23,472 nt of DNA, from the IMG/VR virus record IMGVR_UViG_3300037193_003321, positions 1-23,472 of that record; one strand, given 5' to 3'. Positions 4,264-13,826 of the stretch are shown one piece after another (position 1 is the first letter of the stretch; every line of letters starts with the position of its first letter). Under the pieces are notes generated by a model. It was not told where the DNA came from and did no database searches. It was given only the letters and a program-made list of their open reading frames with translations. Source of the DNA: a virus. The translations under genes were made by a program, and so were the position numbers.

Positions 4264-4518
4264 ATGAAAAGCAAGGACCTCGATGGCGCCTGGCGGCCAC
4301 TCCTGACCCGGCGGCTCCTCGTGAATCTGCGGCCGGCGGCCGACACCCCGGACCGAGCAATCCGAGGTGTGCTCTGGGATCAGCGGGGCCCGCTCCTGAT
4401 TCTCAAGAGCGCCGAACTCATCGAGACTGGCCAGCAGGTCCGCCGGGTCGACGGCGAGGTCGTCATCGAACGCCGCAACGTCGACTTCGTCCAGGTACTT
4501 CCGAACCCGGAGGATTGA
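4264..4518 (+). CDS. Small Sm-like (LSm-type) protein, unknown role
   Basis: The product has 84 residues. Residues 18-52 (LLVNL, then IRGVLWDQRGPLLILKSAEL) and 63-79 (DGEVVIERRNVDFVQVL) resemble the two halves of an Sm fold: strand, G-x-L-hydrophobic, D, L-x-L, then a glycine and a basic strand followed by N-V-x-hydrophobic. Sm proteins form rings that bind U-rich RNA. The resemblance is by eye only, and a small beta-barrel head or connector component would look similar. Small proteins of this kind sit between terminase and portal genes in some actinobacterial phages. It is preceded directly by a promoter-like motif and followed three bases later by the portal start. I am sure it is a gene, less sure of the fold. 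Confidence 0.75.
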   Translation: MKSKDLDGAWRPLLTRRLLVNLRPAADTPDRAIRGVLWDQRGPLLILKSAELIETGQQVRRVDGEVVIERRNVDFVQVLPNPED

Positions 4519-4521
4519 CCC

Positions 4522-6552
4522 GTGGCCGTCGTGGTCTCCGAAGGATCGCTGACCATGTCCCATACCGAGCCCTTTCGGCCGTTCGTGAACTACGGATCGA
4601 TCGACCTCTATTCCGGCCGGACCGAGGACTACGCCGCCATCTACCGCACCCAACCCAACGTCCGGCTCGTCGTCCGGTTCCTCGGCCGCAACATCGCCCA
4701 GCTCGGCCTTCACGGCTACCGGCGGATCGCCGCTGCCGAGCGGGCCCAGCTCGACGCCGGCCACGACCTCGCCCAGTTCCTCAAGAACCCGACGCCAGCG
4801 GCGACGAAGCCGGTCACCCGCCACCGGTGGATCCGAGGGATCGTCGAGGACCTCGCCATCTTCGACACGGCGTATCTCTTGAAAGCGCGCAACACGGCGA
4901 CGGCGCGCCTCAACGGATTCCGGATCCCGCCCCAGATGATGAGACCGATCGGCGATTCATGGCTCTGGCCCGAGGGCTACGAGCTCCTCGGCAACAAGCA
5001 GCGGGTCACCTACCCGCCCGACGCCGTCGTCCACATCTTCGGCCACAACCCCGAGGATCCCCGCCAGGGCCTCTCGCCCCTCGAGAGTCTCCGCCGGCTT
5101 CTCGCCGAGGAAGCATCCGCCGGCGAGTGGCGGGAACAGTACTGGCGGGGCGGCGCCCGAATCTCCGGCGTGATCGAGCGGCCGGCAGACGCGCCGAAGT
5201 GGTCCGACACCGCCCGGAACCGGTTCCGATCCGACTGGCAGGCCGCCTACTCCGGGACCGGCGGAGAAGCCGGGTGGACCCCGATCCTCGAAGAGGGGAT
5301 GAAGTTCGACCCGACATCCTTCTCGGCGAAGGAATCCGAGTACCTCGCCGCCCGGCGTCTGTCGCGGGAGGAGGCGGCCGCCGCCTACTTCATCCCCCCC
5401 GCCTTCGTCGGGATCCTCGAAAACGCCAACTTCTCGAACATCAAGGAGCAGCACGTCTCCCTCTACGCCGACACCCTCGGCCCCTGGCTCGACTGGATCA
5501 CCGAGGACCTCGAGCTCCAGCTCCTCCCCGAATTCGACGACGTCGACGACGTCTACCTCGAATTCAACCTCGAGGAGAAGCTCCGCGGGTCCTTCGAGGA
5601 GCAGGCCACCGCCGCGCAAGCGTCGGTCGGCGCCCCGTGGGTCACCCGCAACGAACAACGGGCCCGGTTCAACCTCCCGCCCGCCCCCGGCGGAGACGTT
5701 CTCGTCACGCCGCTCAACGTCCTCGTCGGCGGCCAGGCCTCCCCCCGAGATTCGGCACCCACCGGCGCGCTGGCCCGGTCGAAGGCCGGCGACCACCACC
5801 ACGGCACGAAGAGCCTGCCCCGCTACCTCCTCGGATGGGAGGCGAAACACCGGGAGATCCTCGAGAGCTTCTTCATGCGCCAGCAGGAGAGTGTGATCTC
5901 CAAGCTCGGCGCCGGCCTCGACCTCGACGAGGCGTTCGCCGCCGACCGCTGGAACGAGGAGCTCGGCCATGACCTCGGCGCCGTCGCCGCCGAGATGGCC
6001 GGCGAGCTCGGCGCCGCCGTCGCCGAGGACTTCGGCGCCGAGTTCGACGTCGAGCGGGCCCTCCCATGGCTCACCGAGAACGCCCGCATCGCTGCCGGGA
6101 GCGTCAACACCGCCACCTACGACCAGCTCGCCGAGGCCTGGTCGGGCGTACCCCGCCGCGGCGCCGCCGGCCGGAAGCAGATCGACGACCTCGACGACCT
6201 CGGCGGAGTCGACTCCGACGACGACGACCTCGAGGACCCCCTCGGAGGCGACAGCTTCCTCAACCCGGCCCGCGACGTCTTCGCCCTGGCCGTCACCGCC
6301 CGGGCGGCCACCATCGCCACCACCCGGGCCACCACCGTCGGCCAGTGGTCGAGACGGGAAGGCGCCAGCCAGGCCGGCGCCGGCTCGAAAACCTGGGTCG
6401 TCAACTCGGCCAACTCCCGGCACGCCGCGCTCGAGGGAGAGACCGTCCCCCTCGGAGAGCCGTTCAGCAACGGGGCCCAGTACCCCGGAGACCCGACCCT
6501 CGGCGTCGACGAGACGGCCGGCTGCCTCTGCTCACTCGATTTCTCCGCATAG
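4522..6552 (+). CDS. Portal protein fused to a MuF-like minor head domain
   Basis: The 676-residue product makes the dodecameric vertex ring through which DNA enters and leaves. Residues about 20-405 follow the HK97-type portal pattern (VRFLGRNIAQLGLHGYRR; LLEEASAGEWREQYWRGG-like stem region; FIPPAFVGILENANFSNIKE near residue 300). After a linker, residues about 435-676 form a second, helix-rich domain ending in SANSRHAALEGE, PFSNGAQYPGDP and ETAGCLCSLDF, the typical C-terminal signature of Mu gpF-like minor head proteins. These are usually two genes, so this is a fusion; no stop or strong internal start separates them. GTG at 4522 has GGAGG at 4509-4513; ATG at 4555 is an alternative start. 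The TAG stop overlaps the ribosome site of the next gene. Confidence 0.92.
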   Translation: MAVVVSEGSLTMSHTEPFRPFVNYGSIDLYSGRTEDYAAIYRTQPNVRLVVRFLGRNIAQLGLHGYRRIAAAERAQLDAGHDLAQFLKNPTPAATKPVTRHRWIRGIVEDLAIFDTAYLLKARNTATARLNGFRIPPQMMRPIGDSWLWPEGYELLGNKQRVTYPPDAVVHIFGHNPEDPRQGLSPLESLRRLLAEEASAGEWREQYWRGGARISGVIERPADAPKWSDTARNRFRSDWQAAYSGTGGEAGWTPILEEGMKFDPTSFSAKESEYLAARRLSREEAAAAYFIPPAFVGILENANFSNIKEQHVSLYADTLGPWLDWITEDLELQLLPEFDDVDDVYLEFNLEEKLRGSFEEQATAAQASVGAPWVTRNEQRARFNLPPAPGGDVLVTPLNVLVGGQASPRDSAPTGALARSKAGDHHHGTKSLPRYLLGWEAKHREILESFFMRQQESVISKLGAGLDLDEAFAADRWNEELGHDLGAVAAEMAGELGAAVAEDFGAEFDVERALPWLTENARIAAGSVNTATYDQLAEAWSGVPRRGAAGRKQIDDLDDLGGVDSDDDDLEDPLGGDSFLNPARDVFALAVTARAATIATTRATTVGQWSRREGASQAGAGSKTWVVNSANSRHAALEGETVPLGEPFSNGAQYPGDPTLGVDETAGCLCSLDFSA

Positions 6553-8167: not shown

Positions 8168-9469
8168 ATGCCCACCAAGACTCGGGCTGAGCTCGAGGCC
8201 GAGAAGCTCGCGTTTGTCGAGAAGGCCCGCGAGATCGCGACGAAGGCCGACAACGAAGCCCGGATGCTCACCGGTGAGGAGCGGACCGAGATCACCCGCC
8301 TCGTCACCGAAGCGAAGTCCCGCCACGACGAGGTCAAGGCCATCGACGGCGACGCCGAGCTCCGCGAGAGCCTCAACGTCCTCGGCCGCCCCGTCGGCGA
8401 GCTCGCCACGGGCCCCGCCGCCGGCCCCGGCCGCGGCGTCTCCCTCGGCGAGAAGTTCACCAACTCCCCCGAGTTCAAGAACTGGCTCTCGTCCGTCGCG
8501 CCCGGCGGCATGGTCCCCGACTCCAAGGGATCCCGGGTCGGGAACTCGCCGCCGGTCGCCTTCGGGATGAAGGACGTCATCACCGGCGGATCGGTCACCA
8601 GCGCCGGCGCGCTCGTCACGCCCGACCAGCTTGGTCTCCTCGACGGCCTGGGCCAGTTCCAGCGGCCGCTCACCATCGTCGACCTCATCACCCGCGGCAC
8701 CACGGGCACCGACACCGTCGAATACGCCCGGGTGACCGGCTTCACCAACGCCGCGGCGACCGTTCCCGAGGCGACCACCGCCGGCGCCATCCCCGACCCG
8801 GACGCCGACAACACCGCCGGCCTCAAGCCGGAATCGGCGATGCTCCTCGAGAAGAAGACGGCCGTCGTGAAGACCATCGCCCACTGGCTCCCGGCCACCA
8901 AGCGGGCCCTCTCCGATGCCGCCCAGATCCGGACCCTGATCGACAACTTCCTCCGCTACGGCCTCGAGGAGGAACTCGAGGACCAGGTCCTCACCGGCAA
9001 CAGCGTCGGCGAGGACTTCGAAGGCATCCTCAACACGCCCAACACCCAGGTCCAGGCCTTCGACACCGACCTCCTCGTGACCACCCGCAAGGCCCGCACG
9101 CTCGTCCGCACCGTCGGCCGGGCCCGGCCCACCGCCTTCGTCTTCCATCCCAACGACAACGAGGCCATCGACCTCCTCCGGGACCTCAACGGCCAGTTCT
9201 ACTTCGGCGGGCCCAGCTCGGCCCCGTCGGCGCCGCTCTGGGGCCTACCCCGGGTCGAGTCGGAGGCGATGCCGGAAGGGACCGGGATGGTCGCCGACTG
9301 GCGGATGGCCGTCCTCTGGGACCGCGAGCAGGCCGCCATTCAGGTCTCCGACTCGCACGCCGACTTCTTCGTCCGGAACCTCGTCGCCATCCTCGCCGAG
9401 ATGCGAGCCGCGTTCGGCGTGATCCGGCCGAAGGCGTTCGTCGAGATCGACCTCGCCGCCGGCAGCTAA
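8168..9469 (+). CDS. Major capsid protein, HK97 fold
   Basis: The 433-residue product forms the capsid shell. Residues about 1-80 are charged and helical, as expected for the delta (scaffolding) region removed by the protease encoded next door. From about residue 130 the sequence follows HK97-type capsid proteins: SVTSAGALVTPDQ, the E-loop area around VEYARVTGFTNAAATVPE, HWLPATKRALSDAAQIRTLI for the spine region, and the C-terminal ending with FFVRNLVAILAEMRAAFGV. It has the strongest ribosome site in the window, AAGGAGG at 8156-8162, five bases before the ATG, in line with very high output. A 12-bp perfect hairpin follows the stop. Confidence 0.94.
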   Translation: MPTKTRAELEAEKLAFVEKAREIATKADNEARMLTGEERTEITRLVTEAKSRHDEVKAIDGDAELRESLNVLGRPVGELATGPAAGPGRGVSLGEKFTNSPEFKNWLSSVAPGGMVPDSKGSRVGNSPPVAFGMKDVITGGSVTSAGALVTPDQLGLLDGLGQFQRPLTIVDLITRGTTGTDTVEYARVTGFTNAAATVPEATTAGAIPDPDADNTAGLKPESAMLLEKKTAVVKTIAHWLPATKRALSDAAQIRTLIDNFLRYGLEEELEDQVLTGNSVGEDFEGILNTPNTQVQAFDTDLLVTTRKARTLVRTVGRARPTAFVFHPNDNEAIDLLRDLNGQFYFGGPSSAPSAPLWGLPRVESEAMPEGTGMVADWRMAVLWDREQAAIQVSDSHADFFVRNLVAILAEMRAAFGVIRPKAFVEIDLAAGS

Positions 9470-9480
9470 CCCGAACCCGG

Positions 9481-9516
9481 CTCCCCGGGGCCAGCATCGT
9501 CGCAGGCCCCGGGGAG
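9481..9516 (+). terminator. Strong GC hairpin after the capsid gene
   Basis: A perfect 12-bp inverted repeat (CTCCCCGGGGCC at 9481-9492 and GGCCCCGGGGAG at 9505-9516) encloses a 12-base loop. It begins 12 bases after the capsid stop and lies ahead of the next ribosome site (GGAGGG at 9528-9533). No T-run follows, so it is not a classical intrinsic terminator. It may partly end transcription, or protect the 3' end of a processed capsid message. Confidence 0.6.
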
Positions 9517-9542: not shown

Positions 9543-9824
9543 ATGCCCAGAATCCGACACGGCACTCTCGAACCCGACGAGATCGAAGAGGTCAACCTCG
9601 GCGTCGACGTCGGCGAAGTCGAGGTGATGAACGTCGACGGCGCGGAGGCGATCTACGTCCGGACTGACGGCGAAGACCCAGAAGTCGAAGGCGAGGACTC
9701 CTACGTCATCCCCGCCGTCATCGGCTCCACGGCCATCATCCCCGTCCGAACCGCCGGGCCGACCGTCGTCAAGCTCATCTCCGCCGGCACCGTCGCCTTC
9801 TCGGTCACGGCGGAGTTCGCATGA
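9543..9824 (+). CDS. Small beta-rich protein, candidate head decoration
   Basis: The 93-residue product has a GGAGGG ribosome site at 9528-9533. The sequence reads as a string of short beta strands with acidic turns (VEVMNVDGAEAIYVRTDG, then YVIPAVIGSTAIIPV and VVKLISAGTVAFSVTAEF). Small proteins with this plan (strand, T-D-G-x-x-P turn, Y-V-I-P, V-K-L-I-S-x-G-T) are frequent behind capsid or tail genes in actinobacterial phages and are thought to be virion surface proteins, though I cannot name a family. Sitting directly behind the capsid gene and overlapping the collagen-like gene by ATGA, it could decorate the capsid or anchor the collagen-like stalk. Function is inferred. Confidence 0.7.
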   Translation: MPRIRHGTLEPDEIEEVNLGVDVGEVEVMNVDGAEAIYVRTDGEDPEVEGEDSYVIPAVIGSTAIIPVRTAGPTVVKLISAGTVAFSVTAEFA

Positions 9825-10042
9825 GCCCCCGGCGGGGCGGCGGCGGCGGCGCCGAAGGACCCACGGGCCCGCCCGGGCCGCCGGGCCCGCCCGGGCCGCC
9901 CGGGCCGAAAGGCGACCCGGGCCCGGCCGGGACCTTCGCCGTCGTTGACCTCGAGGCGAGAGTCGCCACGCTCGAAACGAGCGTCGCCGAACTCACCGCC
10001 CAGCTCGTGGCCCACGCCGCCGACAAGAAGGCACACAAGTAG
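9821..10042 (+). CDS. Collagen-like protein with C-terminal coiled coil
   Basis: This 73-residue product has a short basic, glycine-rich start, then eight uninterrupted Gly-X-Y triplets (residues 13-36, mostly GPP, also GPK, GDP, GPA), then a heptad pattern from about residue 45 with L/V at 3-4 spacing (DLEARVATLETSVAELTAQL). Collagen triplets followed by a coiled coil form trimers, so it is probably a thin trimeric fibre on the virion. No membrane or signal segment is visible. The ATG overlaps the stop of the preceding small protein, and the next gene starts at the base after its stop, so expression should be coupled. Collagen-like repeats are known in phage fibres; a capsid location is inferred from position. 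Confidence 0.8.
   Translation: MSPRRGGGGGAEGPTGPPGPPGPPGPPGPKGDPGPAGTFAVVDLEARVATLETSVAELTAQLVAHAADKKAHK
9865..9900 (+). repeat. Two perfect 18-bp tandem repeats in the collagen-like gene
   Basis: The 18-base unit GGGCCCGCCCGGGCCGCC occurs at 9865-9882 and again at 9883-9900, with a partial third copy after it. Each unit encodes two Gly-Pro-Pro triplets. In-frame gain or loss of a unit would change the stalk length by six residues. Confidence 0.85.
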
Positions 10043-10552
10043 GTGCCGAGCTCGAACCTGGCGCTCGCGCCGACCGTGATCCACCTCGTGCACATCGCAG
10101 AGCCGCACCGGACCGTCCTCGACGTCGGCCCCGGCCGGGGGAAGTACGGGGTCCTCCTCCGGGAATACCTCAATGAGCCGCCCGAGGTCCTCGACGCCGT
10201 CGAGGTCGAGCCGAGCTACGTCACCAACCGACTCAAAGCGATCTACGACGAGGTCTTCATCGACGACGTCCGCAACTTCACCAACCTCGAGTTCGCCTAC
10301 TACGACGTCGTCCTCCTCGTTGACGTCATCGAGCACCTCGACAAGGACGACGGCCTCGAGCTCCTCCGGCGGATCCCCGGCCGGGTCGTCGTCTGCACCC
10401 CGGAGGAGTTCTTCGACAACGGCCCCGGCCTGCCGGCATCGGAGGAACACCGGTCCCTCTGGACCCGAGAGGACTTCGCCGCCGTCCGGACGATCGACGT
10501 CGACGCCTCCGCCCTCGGGGGAATCGTCGTCTCCCTCGCCCCGCAAGGGTGA
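10043..10552 (+). CDS. SAM-dependent methyltransferase (class I)
   Basis: The 169-residue product has the Rossmann-type methyltransferase motifs: motif I at VLDVGPGRGKYG (D27, G29, G31, G33), an acidic end of strand 2 (AVEVEPSY), and the motif-IV region DVVLLVDVIEHLDKDDG (D88, D94, E97-H98) typical of methyltransferase family 11/23 proteins acting on small molecules or sugars. No DNA-methylase catalytic motif (DPPY or PC) is seen. The GTG follows the previous stop directly, and the end overlaps the glycosyltransferase start (GTGA), which suggests the two act on the same substrate, for example a sugar added to the virion. The substrate is not readable from the sequence. Confidence 0.85.
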   Translation: MPSSNLALAPTVIHLVHIAEPHRTVLDVGPGRGKYGVLLREYLNEPPEVLDAVEVEPSYVTNRLKAIYDEVFIDDVRNFTNLEFAYYDVVLLVDVIEHLDKDDGLELLRRIPGRVVVCTPEEFFDNGPGLPASEEHRSLWTREDFAAVRTIDVDASALGGIVVSLAPQG

Positions 10553-13026
10553 ACATCCTCGCCCACGTCCACAAGGCGCCTCCAGAGCACAACGCCGGCG
10601 CCGAATGGATGCTCCTCACCATCGGCCGGGAACTCGTCCGCCGCGGCCACGAGTTCACCATCTACGCCAGCCACAACCGGCGGGCCACCACCCTCGACGG
10701 CGTCCGCATTGTCCCCAGGAGCCCAACCCGGCGCCTCGACGAGCTCCACCGCCACGCCGACCTCGTCATCACCCATCTCGACGAGACCCGGCGGGCCGTC
10801 GCCCTCGCCGGCCGCCACGGCCGCCCCGTCGTCCACCTCGTCCACAACGACCGCCAGCTCACCTACCACGGCATCACGCCGGCGGCCGCCGCCCTCGTCG
10901 TCCTCAACTCCCGGTGGATCGCCGACACCGCTGGATGGCCCGGGCCATCACTCGTCGTCCACCCACCCGTCTTCGCCGCCGACTACCGCACCACCCCCGG
11001 CGACCGGGTCACCCTCCTCAACCTCTCCGAAGCGAAAGGCGGGCCGCTGTTCTTCGACCTCGCCGAGCGGATGCCCGACGTCGGCTTCCTGGCCGTCCGG
11101 GGCGCCTACGCCGCCCAGCACAACCCACGCGGGCCCGGCCGCAACGTCGAGGTCATCGGGAACACCGCCCACGTCGTCCGCGACGTCTACGCGAGGACCC
11201 GCATCCTTCTCGTCCCCTCGAGCTACGAATCGTGGGGCCGGGTCGCCATCGAGGCGGCCGCCAGCGGGATCCCCACGATCGCCCATCCGACCCCCGGCCT
11301 CCTCGAGAGCCTCGGCCCCGCCGGGATCTTCGTCGACCGGAACGACCCCGCCGGCTGGGAACGGGAGATCCGCCGGCTCCTCGACGACGCCGACCACTAC
11401 ACCGCCGCCTCCCGCCGCGCGATAACCCGCGCGGCCGAGCTCGACCCGACCGCCCAACTCGACGCCCTCGACGCCGAACTCCGCCGCCTGGTCGACGTCG
11501 ACCGCCGGCGGCCGGTCGACTTCGCCGCCCACACCGCGCCCTACGTCGAGCATCTCGCCCCGATCTACCGGGCCATGCCCCCCGAGCACCGCGGCATCTT
11601 CTACGTCACCTCCTGGGCCCGGGCCCGGGCCGTCGAACTCGGGATCCCCGAGGACGAGCTCGTCATCGACGACGGTCACCCGCTCCCGGCCGGCGCCGAG
11701 ATCGTCGTCGCCTCCTACCGGGACCTCACCCGGGCCCGGGACCGGCCCGTCATCCTCTGCGAGCACGGCGCAGGCCAGGCCTACTCGAACCGCCACTCGA
11801 GCTACGTCGGCGGCGTCGGCCGGGAACCCGTCGTCCTCTTCGTCGTCCCCAACGACCAGGCCGCCGAACGGAACCGCCGGCGATACCCGTTCACTCCCAA
11901 CGCCGTCGTCGGCTGCCCCAAGCTCGACGAGCTCCTCACCATCCCGGCGCCGGCGGGCCCGCCGACCGTCGCCATCTCCTTCCACTGGCGATGCGACGTC
12001 GCACCCGAGGCCGGCACCGCGCTCGGCGACTATCGGCCCGTCCTCGGCGAGCTCCGCCACGGCCTGGCCGCCGCCGGCATCGATCTCATCGGCCACGGCC
12101 ATCCCGGCATCGCCGGCGAGCTAGAGGCCGTCTACGCCGAGGTCGGCATCGAGTTCGTACCCTCCTTCGTCGACGTCGTCCGCCGCGCCCATCTCTACGC
12201 CGTCGACAACTCCTCGACCCTCTTCGAATTCGCCGCCCTCGGCCGCCCCGTCGTCGTCCTCAACGCCCGCCGATACCGGCGCGGCGTCCGCCACGGCCTC
12301 CGCTTCTGGACCGAGGCCGGCGTCGGCCTCAACGTCGACGACCCGGCCGAGCTCCTCCCGACCATCCTGGCCGCCCTCGAGGACCCCGACGGCGTGAGAC
12401 GGTCCCGAGAGAGCTCCGTCGCGCGTGTCTACCCTGTCCGCGATGGGACTTCGGCACGACGGGCCGCCGCCGCGGTGGTCGCGGTAGTGGCGAAACGCTG
12501 CCTCGTATGTGGAGCCGCCCACGCCTCGTGCGGAGGCCCGACGGACGTCGTCCCGGTGGACGAACAGATGACGAGGAGCGAGCGCGTGCCAGGACCTTTG
12601 AAGCGATACCCGAACCCCGCCCGGGCCGGCGCCTACCTCAAGCTCGACGAGGAGACCGCCCGCCGCATGGGCCTCACCGGCGAACCCGTCGAGCCGCTCC
12701 CGGCGCTCCTGTCCAGCAAGACCGCCGCGGCGAGCTCCACGAGCCGCCAGGAACCGCCAGGAGCCCTGGCCGGGCCCGGACGGCCGGCGGCGTCCTCGGC
12801 GGCCGGCCCCAGGAGCGGCCCTTCCGTCCCCAAGGGCGCCATCCCGCCCGGCGGCGTCACCCACCGGGCCCGCGCCGCGGCCCGAGCCACCGAGGAGGCC
12901 ACCATGGCCGAGGAGCCCGCCCCCGCACCGGAGACGCCGGAGACGCCGGAGACGCCCGAGGTCGAACCGCAGGACAAGAAGCGGCCGGCGCCGAGCTCGC
13001 GGCGCCGGCGCAAGATCAGCGAATAG
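10549..13026 (+). CDS. Two-domain glycosyltransferase run on into small structural genes
   Basis: The open frame encodes 825 residues. Residues 1-310 are a GT-B glycosyltransferase of GT4 style: HNAGAEWMLLTIGRELVRRG near the start and an E-x7-E motif (E227, E235) in YESWGRVAIEAAASGIP. Residues about 325-640 form a second GT-B-like part resembling CDP-glycerol glycerophosphotransferases (HGAGQ at 406-410; DNSSTLFEFAALGRPVVV from D553). After an Arg/Ala linker, residues 649-825 look like unrelated phage proteins: KRCLVCGAAHASC (a C-x2-C zinc ribbon), then LKRYPNPARAGAYLKLDEE, then an acidic/basic low-complexity tail. In-frame starts with ribosome sites lie at GTG 12586 (GAGGAG 12573-12578) and ATG 12904 (GAGGAGG 12892-12898), plus GTG 12487 directly before KRC. 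So the last part may be made separately. The glycosyltransferase call is firm; acceptor and donor are unknown. Confidence 0.85.
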   Translation: MNILAHVHKAPPEHNAGAEWMLLTIGRELVRRGHEFTIYASHNRRATTLDGVRIVPRSPTRRLDELHRHADLVITHLDETRRAVALAGRHGRPVVHLVHNDRQLTYHGITPAAAALVVLNSRWIADTAGWPGPSLVVHPPVFAADYRTTPGDRVTLLNLSEAKGGPLFFDLAERMPDVGFLAVRGAYAAQHNPRGPGRNVEVIGNTAHVVRDVYARTRILLVPSSYESWGRVAIEAAASGIPTIAHPTPGLLESLGPAGIFVDRNDPAGWEREIRRLLDDADHYTAASRRAITRAAELDPTAQLDALDAELRRLVDVDRRRPVDFAAHTAPYVEHLAPIYRAMPPEHRGIFYVTSWARARAVELGIPEDELVIDDGHPLPAGAEIVVASYRDLTRARDRPVILCEHGAGQAYSNRHSSYVGGVGREPVVLFVVPNDQAAERNRRRYPFTPNAVVGCPKLDELLTIPAPAGPPTVAISFHWRCDVAPEAGTALGDYRPVLGELRHGLAAAGIDLIGHGHPGIAGELEAVYAEVGIEFVPSFVDVVRRAHLYAVDNSSTLFEFAALGRPVVVLNARRYRRGVRHGLRFWTEAGVGLNVDDPAELLPTILAALEDPDGVRRSRESSVARVYPVRDGTSARRAAAAVVAVVAKRCLVCGAAHASCGGPTDVVPVDEQMTRSERVPGPLKRYPNPARAGAYLKLDEETARRMGLTGEPVEPLPALLSSKTAAASSTSRQEPPGALAGPGRPAASSAAGPRSGPSVPKGAIPPGGVTHRARAAARATEEATMAEEPAPAPETPETPETPEVEPQDKKRPAPSSRRRRKISE
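12573..12588 (+). promoter_or_regulatory. Internal ribosome site and GTG start inside the long frame
   Basis: GAGGAG at 12573-12578 lies seven bases before an in-frame GTG at 12586. A product from here would begin with PGPLKRYPNP and an AYLKLDEETARRMGL stretch, which looks like the natural beginning of a small neck-region phage protein (146 residues to the shared stop at 13026). Confidence 0.45.
12892..12906 (+). promoter_or_regulatory. Second internal ribosome site and ATG start
   Basis: GAGGAGG at 12892-12898 lies five bases before an in-frame ATG at 12904, a better site than that of most annotated genes here. It would yield a 40-residue peptide with an ETPETPETPE repeat and a basic end (SSRRRRKISE). 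It may be real or may reflect Glu-Glu-Ala coding. Confidence 0.35.
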
Positions 13027-13029
13027 GCC

Positions 13030-13635
13030 ATGCCCGAACTCCTCGCCACCGTCGCCGAGCTCCGCATCTTCCTCGACGACCCGACCCTCGACGAGGACCG
13101 GGCCGAGCTCTTCCTCCGCATCGCCTCCGGCGAGGTCCGCGGCTACACCGGCCAGCTCTTCGACCTGGTCGAAAACGACGAGGTGATCCTCAACGGCCGG
13201 GGGACGAGGATCCTGCTCCTCCCCGAGCTCCCGGTCCTGGCCGTCACCGAGGTGCTCGAGGCCTACGCCACCACCGACGAGGCCACCATCGCCGGGCCCC
13301 TCGACGCCTCGCCGATCTACGAATGGGACGAGGACGGCGTCCTCGAACGGATCGACGGCGGAGTCTTCCGCCGCCGGCGCCGCTGGTACCAGATCACCTA
13401 CGACCACGGCTACGCCACCGTCCCCGACGAGGTCAAATCCGTCGTCCTCCGCGCCGCCGGCCGCGCGTTCGAGAACCCCGAAGGCATCCGCCAGGAAACC
13501 CTCGGCCGCTACAGCTACACCCTCGCCGGCGAACAGGCCGGCATCGGCCTCTACGCCCCCGACCGACGCGACCTCGAGCCCTACCGGCACGAGACCCGGG
13601 GTCGGGCCGGGACGGCCGCCGGAGTCGGCTCGTGA
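13030..13635 (+). CDS. Head-tail connector (adaptor, HK97 gp6-like)
   Basis: The 201-residue product begins with a helical part (LLATVAELRIFLDDPTLDE; RAELFLRIASGEVRGYTGQ) that matches the start of gp6/gp15-type adaptor proteins, which form a ring beneath the portal. A strand-rich section (RILLLPELPVLAVTEVLEAY) and TYDHGYATVPDEVKSVVLRA follow, the second being a strong signature of this family (Y-x-x-G-Y-x-x-V-P-x-x-[IV]). The last part is long and basic. It starts three bases after the preceding stop and its end overlaps the zinc-ribbon gene (GTGA). Position between capsid genes and the closure protein agrees. Confidence 0.85.
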   Translation: MPELLATVAELRIFLDDPTLDEDRAELFLRIASGEVRGYTGQLFDLVENDEVILNGRGTRILLLPELPVLAVTEVLEAYATTDEATIAGPLDASPIYEWDEDGVLERIDGGVFRRRRRWYQITYDHGYATVPDEVKSVVLRAAGRAFENPEGIRQETLGRYSYTLAGEQAGIGLYAPDRRDLEPYRHETRGRAGTAAGVGS

Positions 13636-13826
13636 ACTGTGACAACTGCGGCCGGCCGATGGCCGATCACTGTTGGGTCCACCTCATCCCCTGTTGCCCC
13701 GGGAAATGCCCGGCCACCCTCGACGAGTACCTCGAGCTCATCGACCGGGAACGGAACCAGCGGCCGGCCGAGGCCATGCTCGCCGATGAGATCCGCCGCC
13801 TCCGCTCCCTCGTGGAGACGAAGTGA
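13632..13826 (+). CDS. Zinc-ribbon miniprotein in the neck cluster
   Basis: The 64-residue product begins MNCDNCGRPMADHC (C3, C6, C14) and continues IPCCPGKCP (C21, C22, C26). The cysteine pairs could bind one or two zinc ions as a small knuckle. The second half is a single charged helix (LDEYLELIDRERNQRPAEAM). The GTG overlaps the stop of the adaptor gene, and its own TGA overlaps the GTG of the next gene. Its role is unknown; zinc miniproteins in phage late operons can be regulators or assembly factors. Confidence 0.7.
   Translation: MNCDNCGRPMADHCWVHLIPCCPGKCPATLDEYLELIDRERNQRPAEAMLADEIRRLRSLVETK

Follow-up and report, generated by a model that had tools for sequence, protein, structure and literature searches.

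A candidate virion glycosylation cassette with glycosyltransferases fused to a head-gene domain between phage capsid and adaptor genes

Introduction

Virion glycosylation has so far been a matter of a few mycobacteriophages: the virion proteins of Che8, Corndog and Myrna are described as glycosylated in a passage of PMC12363180 that cites Freeman et al. 2023. Within the head module of Corndog, three transferases and an O-methyltransferase are encoded between the portal and protease genes, and the authors of that study proposed that these enzymes modify the capsid; the enzymes themselves were not detected in virions (PMC4351075). Here we describe a locus of a soil phage from an IMG/VR virus record, a stretch of 23,472 bases (69.8% GC, hereafter “the window”) for which a near-identity search of cultured phages returned no close relative. 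The locus resembles Che8 and Corndog in combining phage-encoded transferases with a methyltransferase, and Corndog also in placing them within the head module.

Gene order and reading frames

Genes on the + strand of the window run from the terminase small and large subunits through a gene at the portal position, the prohead protease, the capsid and the cassette, to the head-tail adaptor (Ad1), a small Cys-rich gene, head closure, neck, tail terminator, tail tube, tape measure and distal tail. The portal-position gene (4515-5972, 485 aa) had no match in Pfam or PHROG. The major capsid protein (MCP), encoded upstream of the cassette (8168..9469, + strand), is of the HK97 type (PF05065, 1.9e-38; phrog_10, 1e-52), and the downstream flank is formed by Ad1 (13030..13635, + strand; phrog_442, 6.3e-33). 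A 63-aa Cys-rich protein, probably metal-binding, is encoded between the adaptor and head-closure genes (13635-13826).

The cassette itself consists of four genes on the + strand: a small all-beta protein of 93 aa (9543..9824), a collagen-like protein of 73 aa (9821..10042), a class I SAM methyltransferase of 169 aa (MT, 10043..10552) and an 825-aa fusion ORF (10549..13026) that includes two glycosyltransferase domains (GTa and GTb) and a head-gene domain. These genes are tightly coupled: successive junctions measure -4, 0 and -4 nt, and Ad1 begins 3 nt past the 825-aa ORF, at 13030. Long spurious ORFs are frequent at the GC content of the window, and one of them, a 1217-aa ORF at 10173-13826, was rejected as a GC-driven shadow (GC3 of 0.56 vs. 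0.85-0.95 in the four cassette genes). Codon-position GC and homology together indicate that the four cassette frames are real, which confirms both the ORFs and the tight coupling proposed in the initial annotation. A 12-bp GC-rich hairpin (9481-9516; z of -4.66 vs. shuffles, no T run downstream) lies 3' of the capsid stop codon and 5' of the small gene, and may hold expression of the cassette under that of the capsid gene.

Methyltransferase and glycosyltransferase domains

The methyltransferase had been recognized initially, and this call stands: SAM motif I (DVGPGRG) is intact, and PF13489 passes, at the borderline, with 27.1 bits vs. a cut-off of 27.0. The first domain of the fusion ORF, GTa (10549..11520, + strand; aa 1 to about 320), is of the GT4 type (PF13692, 1.9e-19; PF00534, 1.3e-16), with intact motifs (HNAGAEWM, and an E-x7-E formed by E227-x7-E235) and a profile that retrieves many solved GT4 enzymes. 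Its family, phrog_26352 (3.6e-94), is listed as function unknown by PHROG. Some GTa relatives form a subfamily bearing HNAGSEWM (as read in L122 and L152), which includes L122, L128, L152 and similar Streptomyces loci with the adaptor absent nearby; the subfamily is possibly cellular and could offer a route to the substrate.

The second domain, GTb (11521..12485, + strand; aa about 325-645), adopts a GT-B fold in an AlphaFold2 model with pLDDT mostly above 90 across the domain, and its closest structural matches by Foldseek are UDP-GlcNAc 2-epimerases, followed by TagF. Active-site-type motifs are kept (EHGAG, GHGHP and DNSST), and GTb has the GT-B fold and the HG, H-x-HP-like and D-x-SS motifs in common with TagF and PF04464, albeit at 12-15% identity and with a window score under the Pfam cut-off (19.4 vs. 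22.1 bits, E 5.6e-4); the homologs in L084 and L089 score above it (25.6 and 29.2). The “double GT-B enzyme” of the initial annotation is thus correct for aa 1 to ~645, but the remainder of the ORF is a separate, non-enzyme head-gene domain.

A fused head-gene domain with an internal start

This remaining part (12487..13026, + strand; aa 647-825) comprises a zinc ribbon, CLVCGAAHASCG, then a mini-domain marked by KRYPNP, and lastly a disordered tail whose end is basic, and is mostly disordered in the AlphaFold2 model. The same domain occurs as a stand-alone 197-aa gene in the capsid-adaptor interval of two relatives in which the enzymes are absent (L085 and L086), and whose capsid is 72% identical to that of the window; zinc-ribbon relatives of the domain are likewise stand-alone genes in L254-L257. 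Beyond the window, it is fused 3' of GTb in L084, L089 and L170, and the idea that the 825-aa ORF results from a frameshift or from an assembly artefact was rejected, since GTb is in frame with the same domain in these three other genomes.

These four GTb fusions group in one clade (support 0.99), and L189 and L194 in a second (support 1.0), where a family-2-type transferase and GTb share a single ORF, directly 5' of Ad1, with a small domain of another kind. GTa can be fused as well, either to a zinc-ribbon tail (L004) or to another small domain (L077, L079 and L081), and the GTa domains of these fusions do not group with the window GTa in our tree. With two separate GTb clades, and L004- and L077-type GTa domains ungrouped with that of the window, the phylogenies indicate that fusion of a transferase to a small protein at the capsid-adaptor position has arisen more than once. 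From their position, the small fused proteins are presumably virion parts. The tail of L222 and L223 was set aside as a head domain, having by eye the appearance of another transferase.

Within the fusion ORF of the window, an AGGAG (12574-12578) and an in-frame GTG (12586) stand just 5' of KRYPNP (12574..12588, + strand; Shine-Dalgarno (SD) energy -8.1). An ATG occupies the same place in L084, L089, L170 and L085, with a comparable ribosome site (SD energies of -8.1 to -8.5), and an analogous site is found at the start of the small domain in L189 (ATG, -10.2) and L194 (GTG, -11.4). For comparison, the background of such sites inside the glycosyltransferase domains is 0.8% per codon, or about 5.5% per 7-codon span, although a product of these probabilities is only indicative because the five sequences that share the KRYPNP-site start are related. 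The same scan for ribosome sites detected no convincing internal start at the boundary of the L004 and L077 fusions. Since a ribosome site and an in-frame start are kept at the boundary in several fusions, two products could arise from one ORF, and the head protein may be made both in free form and tethered to the enzymes. Another internal ATG, with a ribosome site that is very strong, is present at 12904 in the window (-11.8) and at 13488 in L084 (-11.4); translation from it would give a peptide of roughly 40-50 aa that covers the C-terminus of the fused tail, acidic at first and basic after that.

Recurrence between capsid and adaptor genes

We surveyed GTa relatives in 80 viral and 80 genome loci, the latter, judged by record title, all from actinomycetes, mostly Streptomyces, with a single exception (a Saprospiraceae MAG). 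GTa relatives adjoin Ad1 in 110 of the 160 loci (94 directly before and 16 directly after), many actinomycete prophages among them, a number which, like the other synteny counts, is probably a lower bound, since the profiles used for adaptor and capsid derive from these same loci and lack sensitivity in distant phages, and which does not represent a population frequency, since loci were chosen by conserved patterns and some contigs are repeated. Methyltransferase relatives have GTa directly 3' in 38 of 80 loci, including 28 with the order capsid, MT, GTa, and the three enzymes are consecutive but separate genes in L235, L266 and L274. GTb relatives, on the other hand, mostly lie on contigs without a recognized head gene nearby (59/80). 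In its simplest form, in a Streptomyces prophage (L090), the interval holds capsid, glycosyltransferase and Ad1 with nothing else, the first two genes overlapping by 4 bases. Individual neighbor genes were checked against PHROGs in L090, L189 and L309 only. Across 50,697 deposited phage records, GTa had no substantial match outside phage TurkishDelight.

The cassette had first been thought to break the usual capsid-to-adaptor order, which is not borne out: enzymes at this position are themselves a recurrent order, as the GTa and MT counts above illustrate. At a number of loci, the adaptor is flanked by GTa on both sides (L016-L018, L020, L030, L035, L036, L038, L062, L066, L071, L074-L076, L078, L095, L114 and L125).

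A proposed role in virion glycosylation

Broadly, the position, fusion and recurrence of these enzymes point to modification of the particle, and we favor, with moderate confidence, a reading in which this cassette of the head operon serves virion glycosylation, its enzymes being fused to a head protein and tethered by way of the internal start. GTa and GTb would add a short glycan to a protein of the head or virion surface while it is being assembled, with the capsid protein as the likeliest acceptor, and the MT would modify the added sugar, as its frequent pairing with GTa suggests. Both transferases would be carried on one polypeptide with a zinc-ribbon head protein that is normally encoded between capsid and adaptor. 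As the retained internal start probably yields this head protein in free form too, only a minority of it would bear the enzymes, and this minority would keep them at the assembling particle. The MCP is the simplest acceptor, since the enzyme gene touches only the capsid and adaptor genes in some loci, as is the case in inducible Streptomyces prophages, where these two are the sole genes touching it. The initial proposal of a virion glycosylation cassette thus holds insofar as the GT4, GT-B and SAM motifs are intact and synteny with capsid and adaptor extends across many contigs, but it had missed the fusion to a head protein. On the other side, GTa has a possible cellular subfamily in Streptomyces, and both enzyme families are without a known glycan or acceptor.

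The alternative that survives best is that the virion is glycosylated by soluble enzymes, the fusion reflecting neutral loss of a stop codon between packed genes and tethering being absent. This is quite possible: most adaptor-adjoining GTa relatives are unfused, and those enzymes of Corndog are free proteins that were not seen in virions (PMC4351075), which calls for caution about tethering. Neutral loss fits less well with a fusion that appears repeatedly, on separate branches and with different tails, and is retained in four diverged GTb genomes. In its boldest form, the tethering model would have glycosyltransferases reach the assembling head as the N-terminal half of a head protein, the abundant short form of which starts internally, in several independent lineages and with different enzymes; we regard this version as tentative and rather doubtful. 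If true, sugar coating would be coupled to particle assembly through that N-terminal half.

The small beta and collagen-like proteins

The main targets could instead be the adjoining collagen-like fiber and small protein, as in glycosylated bacterial collagen-like proteins. The small protein is confidently modeled by AlphaFold2 (mean pLDDT of 93, eight strands and zero helix); its family (phrog_32632, 2.1e-6) is of function unknown in PHROG, and its structural neighbors in the PDB were weak generic beta matches only. The collagen-like protein has 9 GXY triplets, counted by eye, followed by a heptad-like helix segment, and PHROG matches to tail fibers. The earlier collagen-like call therefore reflects a real match, but a short one, with a score under the Pfam cut-off (PF01391, 18.6 bits vs. 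27.2).

The adjacency and overlap of these genes with the enzymes in the window favor such targets, as does the presence elsewhere of the small protein 5' of coiled-coil-like genes. The small beta protein homologs of L338 and L341 lie directly 5' of a coiled-coil-like gene, and this repetition of the order seen in the window suggests that the two gene products form a two-piece fiber. Whether relatives lacking the cassette also lack the collagen-like gene had been raised initially, and the answer is mixed: the cassette-less L085 and L086 have neither the small gene nor the collagen-like gene, yet L004, L084, L089 and L170 carry enzymes at the capsid-adaptor position with the collagen-like gene absent. 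As these four genomes and L090 bear the enzymes without it, the collagen-like protein was rejected as an obligatory partner or substrate, and we consider it unlikely that this fiber and the small protein are the main targets.

Host-surface and DNA substrates

Another explanation is that, in the course of infection or in lysogeny, the enzymes remodel wall glycans or teichoic acids of the host, for instance to block superinfection. The GTb fold resembles that of the teichoic-acid polymerase TagF, and the GTa profile reaches the teichoic-acid transferase TarM. However, these are co-directional, overlapping genes within a late head operon, with fusion to a head-gene product, and both features are found in many unrelated phages, so that a host-surface role appears quite unlikely. 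Glycosylation of phage DNA by the cassette enzymes is highly improbable: phage glycosyltransferases can act on DNA, but no base-hydroxylating gene was found among the annotated window genes, and both position and fusion involve head genes. Judging from synteny and intact motifs, virion modification would be a better fit than either wall or DNA modification.

Comparison with known systems

The nearest deposited system is that of the Streptomyces phage TurkishDelight, whose gp20 (NC_073473) belongs to the GTa family and lies between the capsid and adaptor genes. It carries two GTa domains in one gene, instead of GTa-GTb, and has no zinc-ribbon tail; a methyltransferase of the window MT family was not found in the capsid-adaptor stretch of this phage. 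The joining of enzyme and head protein in a single frame has a counterpart in C/Nu3 of phage lambda, where an internal start gives the head protein alone. The window likewise has a predicted in-frame internal start, with a ribosome site at the domain boundary, but the two are not homologous: a protease and a scaffold are joined in lambda, and glycosyltransferases and a zinc-ribbon small head protein here. No description of an enzyme-to-head-protein fusion as an assembly-coupled coat modification was found in the literature searched, and its repeated occurrence suggests a means of tying coat modification to assembly.

Che8 differs in encoding GT2- and GT25-type enzymes and a TylF-like methyltransferase at the genome end. 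Homology of GTa and GTb to these proven enzymes was rejected, as profiles gave no significant match with Che8 gp108-gp110 and the Pfam families differ. The data point to a second, unrelated enzyme set for virion glycosylation, one with a settled place in the head operons of numerous uncultured phages and Streptomyces prophages; with so widespread an enzyme set, virion glycosylation looks more common than cultured phages imply. For Che8, Corndog and Myrna, no such joining of an enzyme to a head protein is reported. On our best reading, then, virion glycosylation itself was already known, while the enzyme set is unrelated to that of Che8 and the fused architecture is new.
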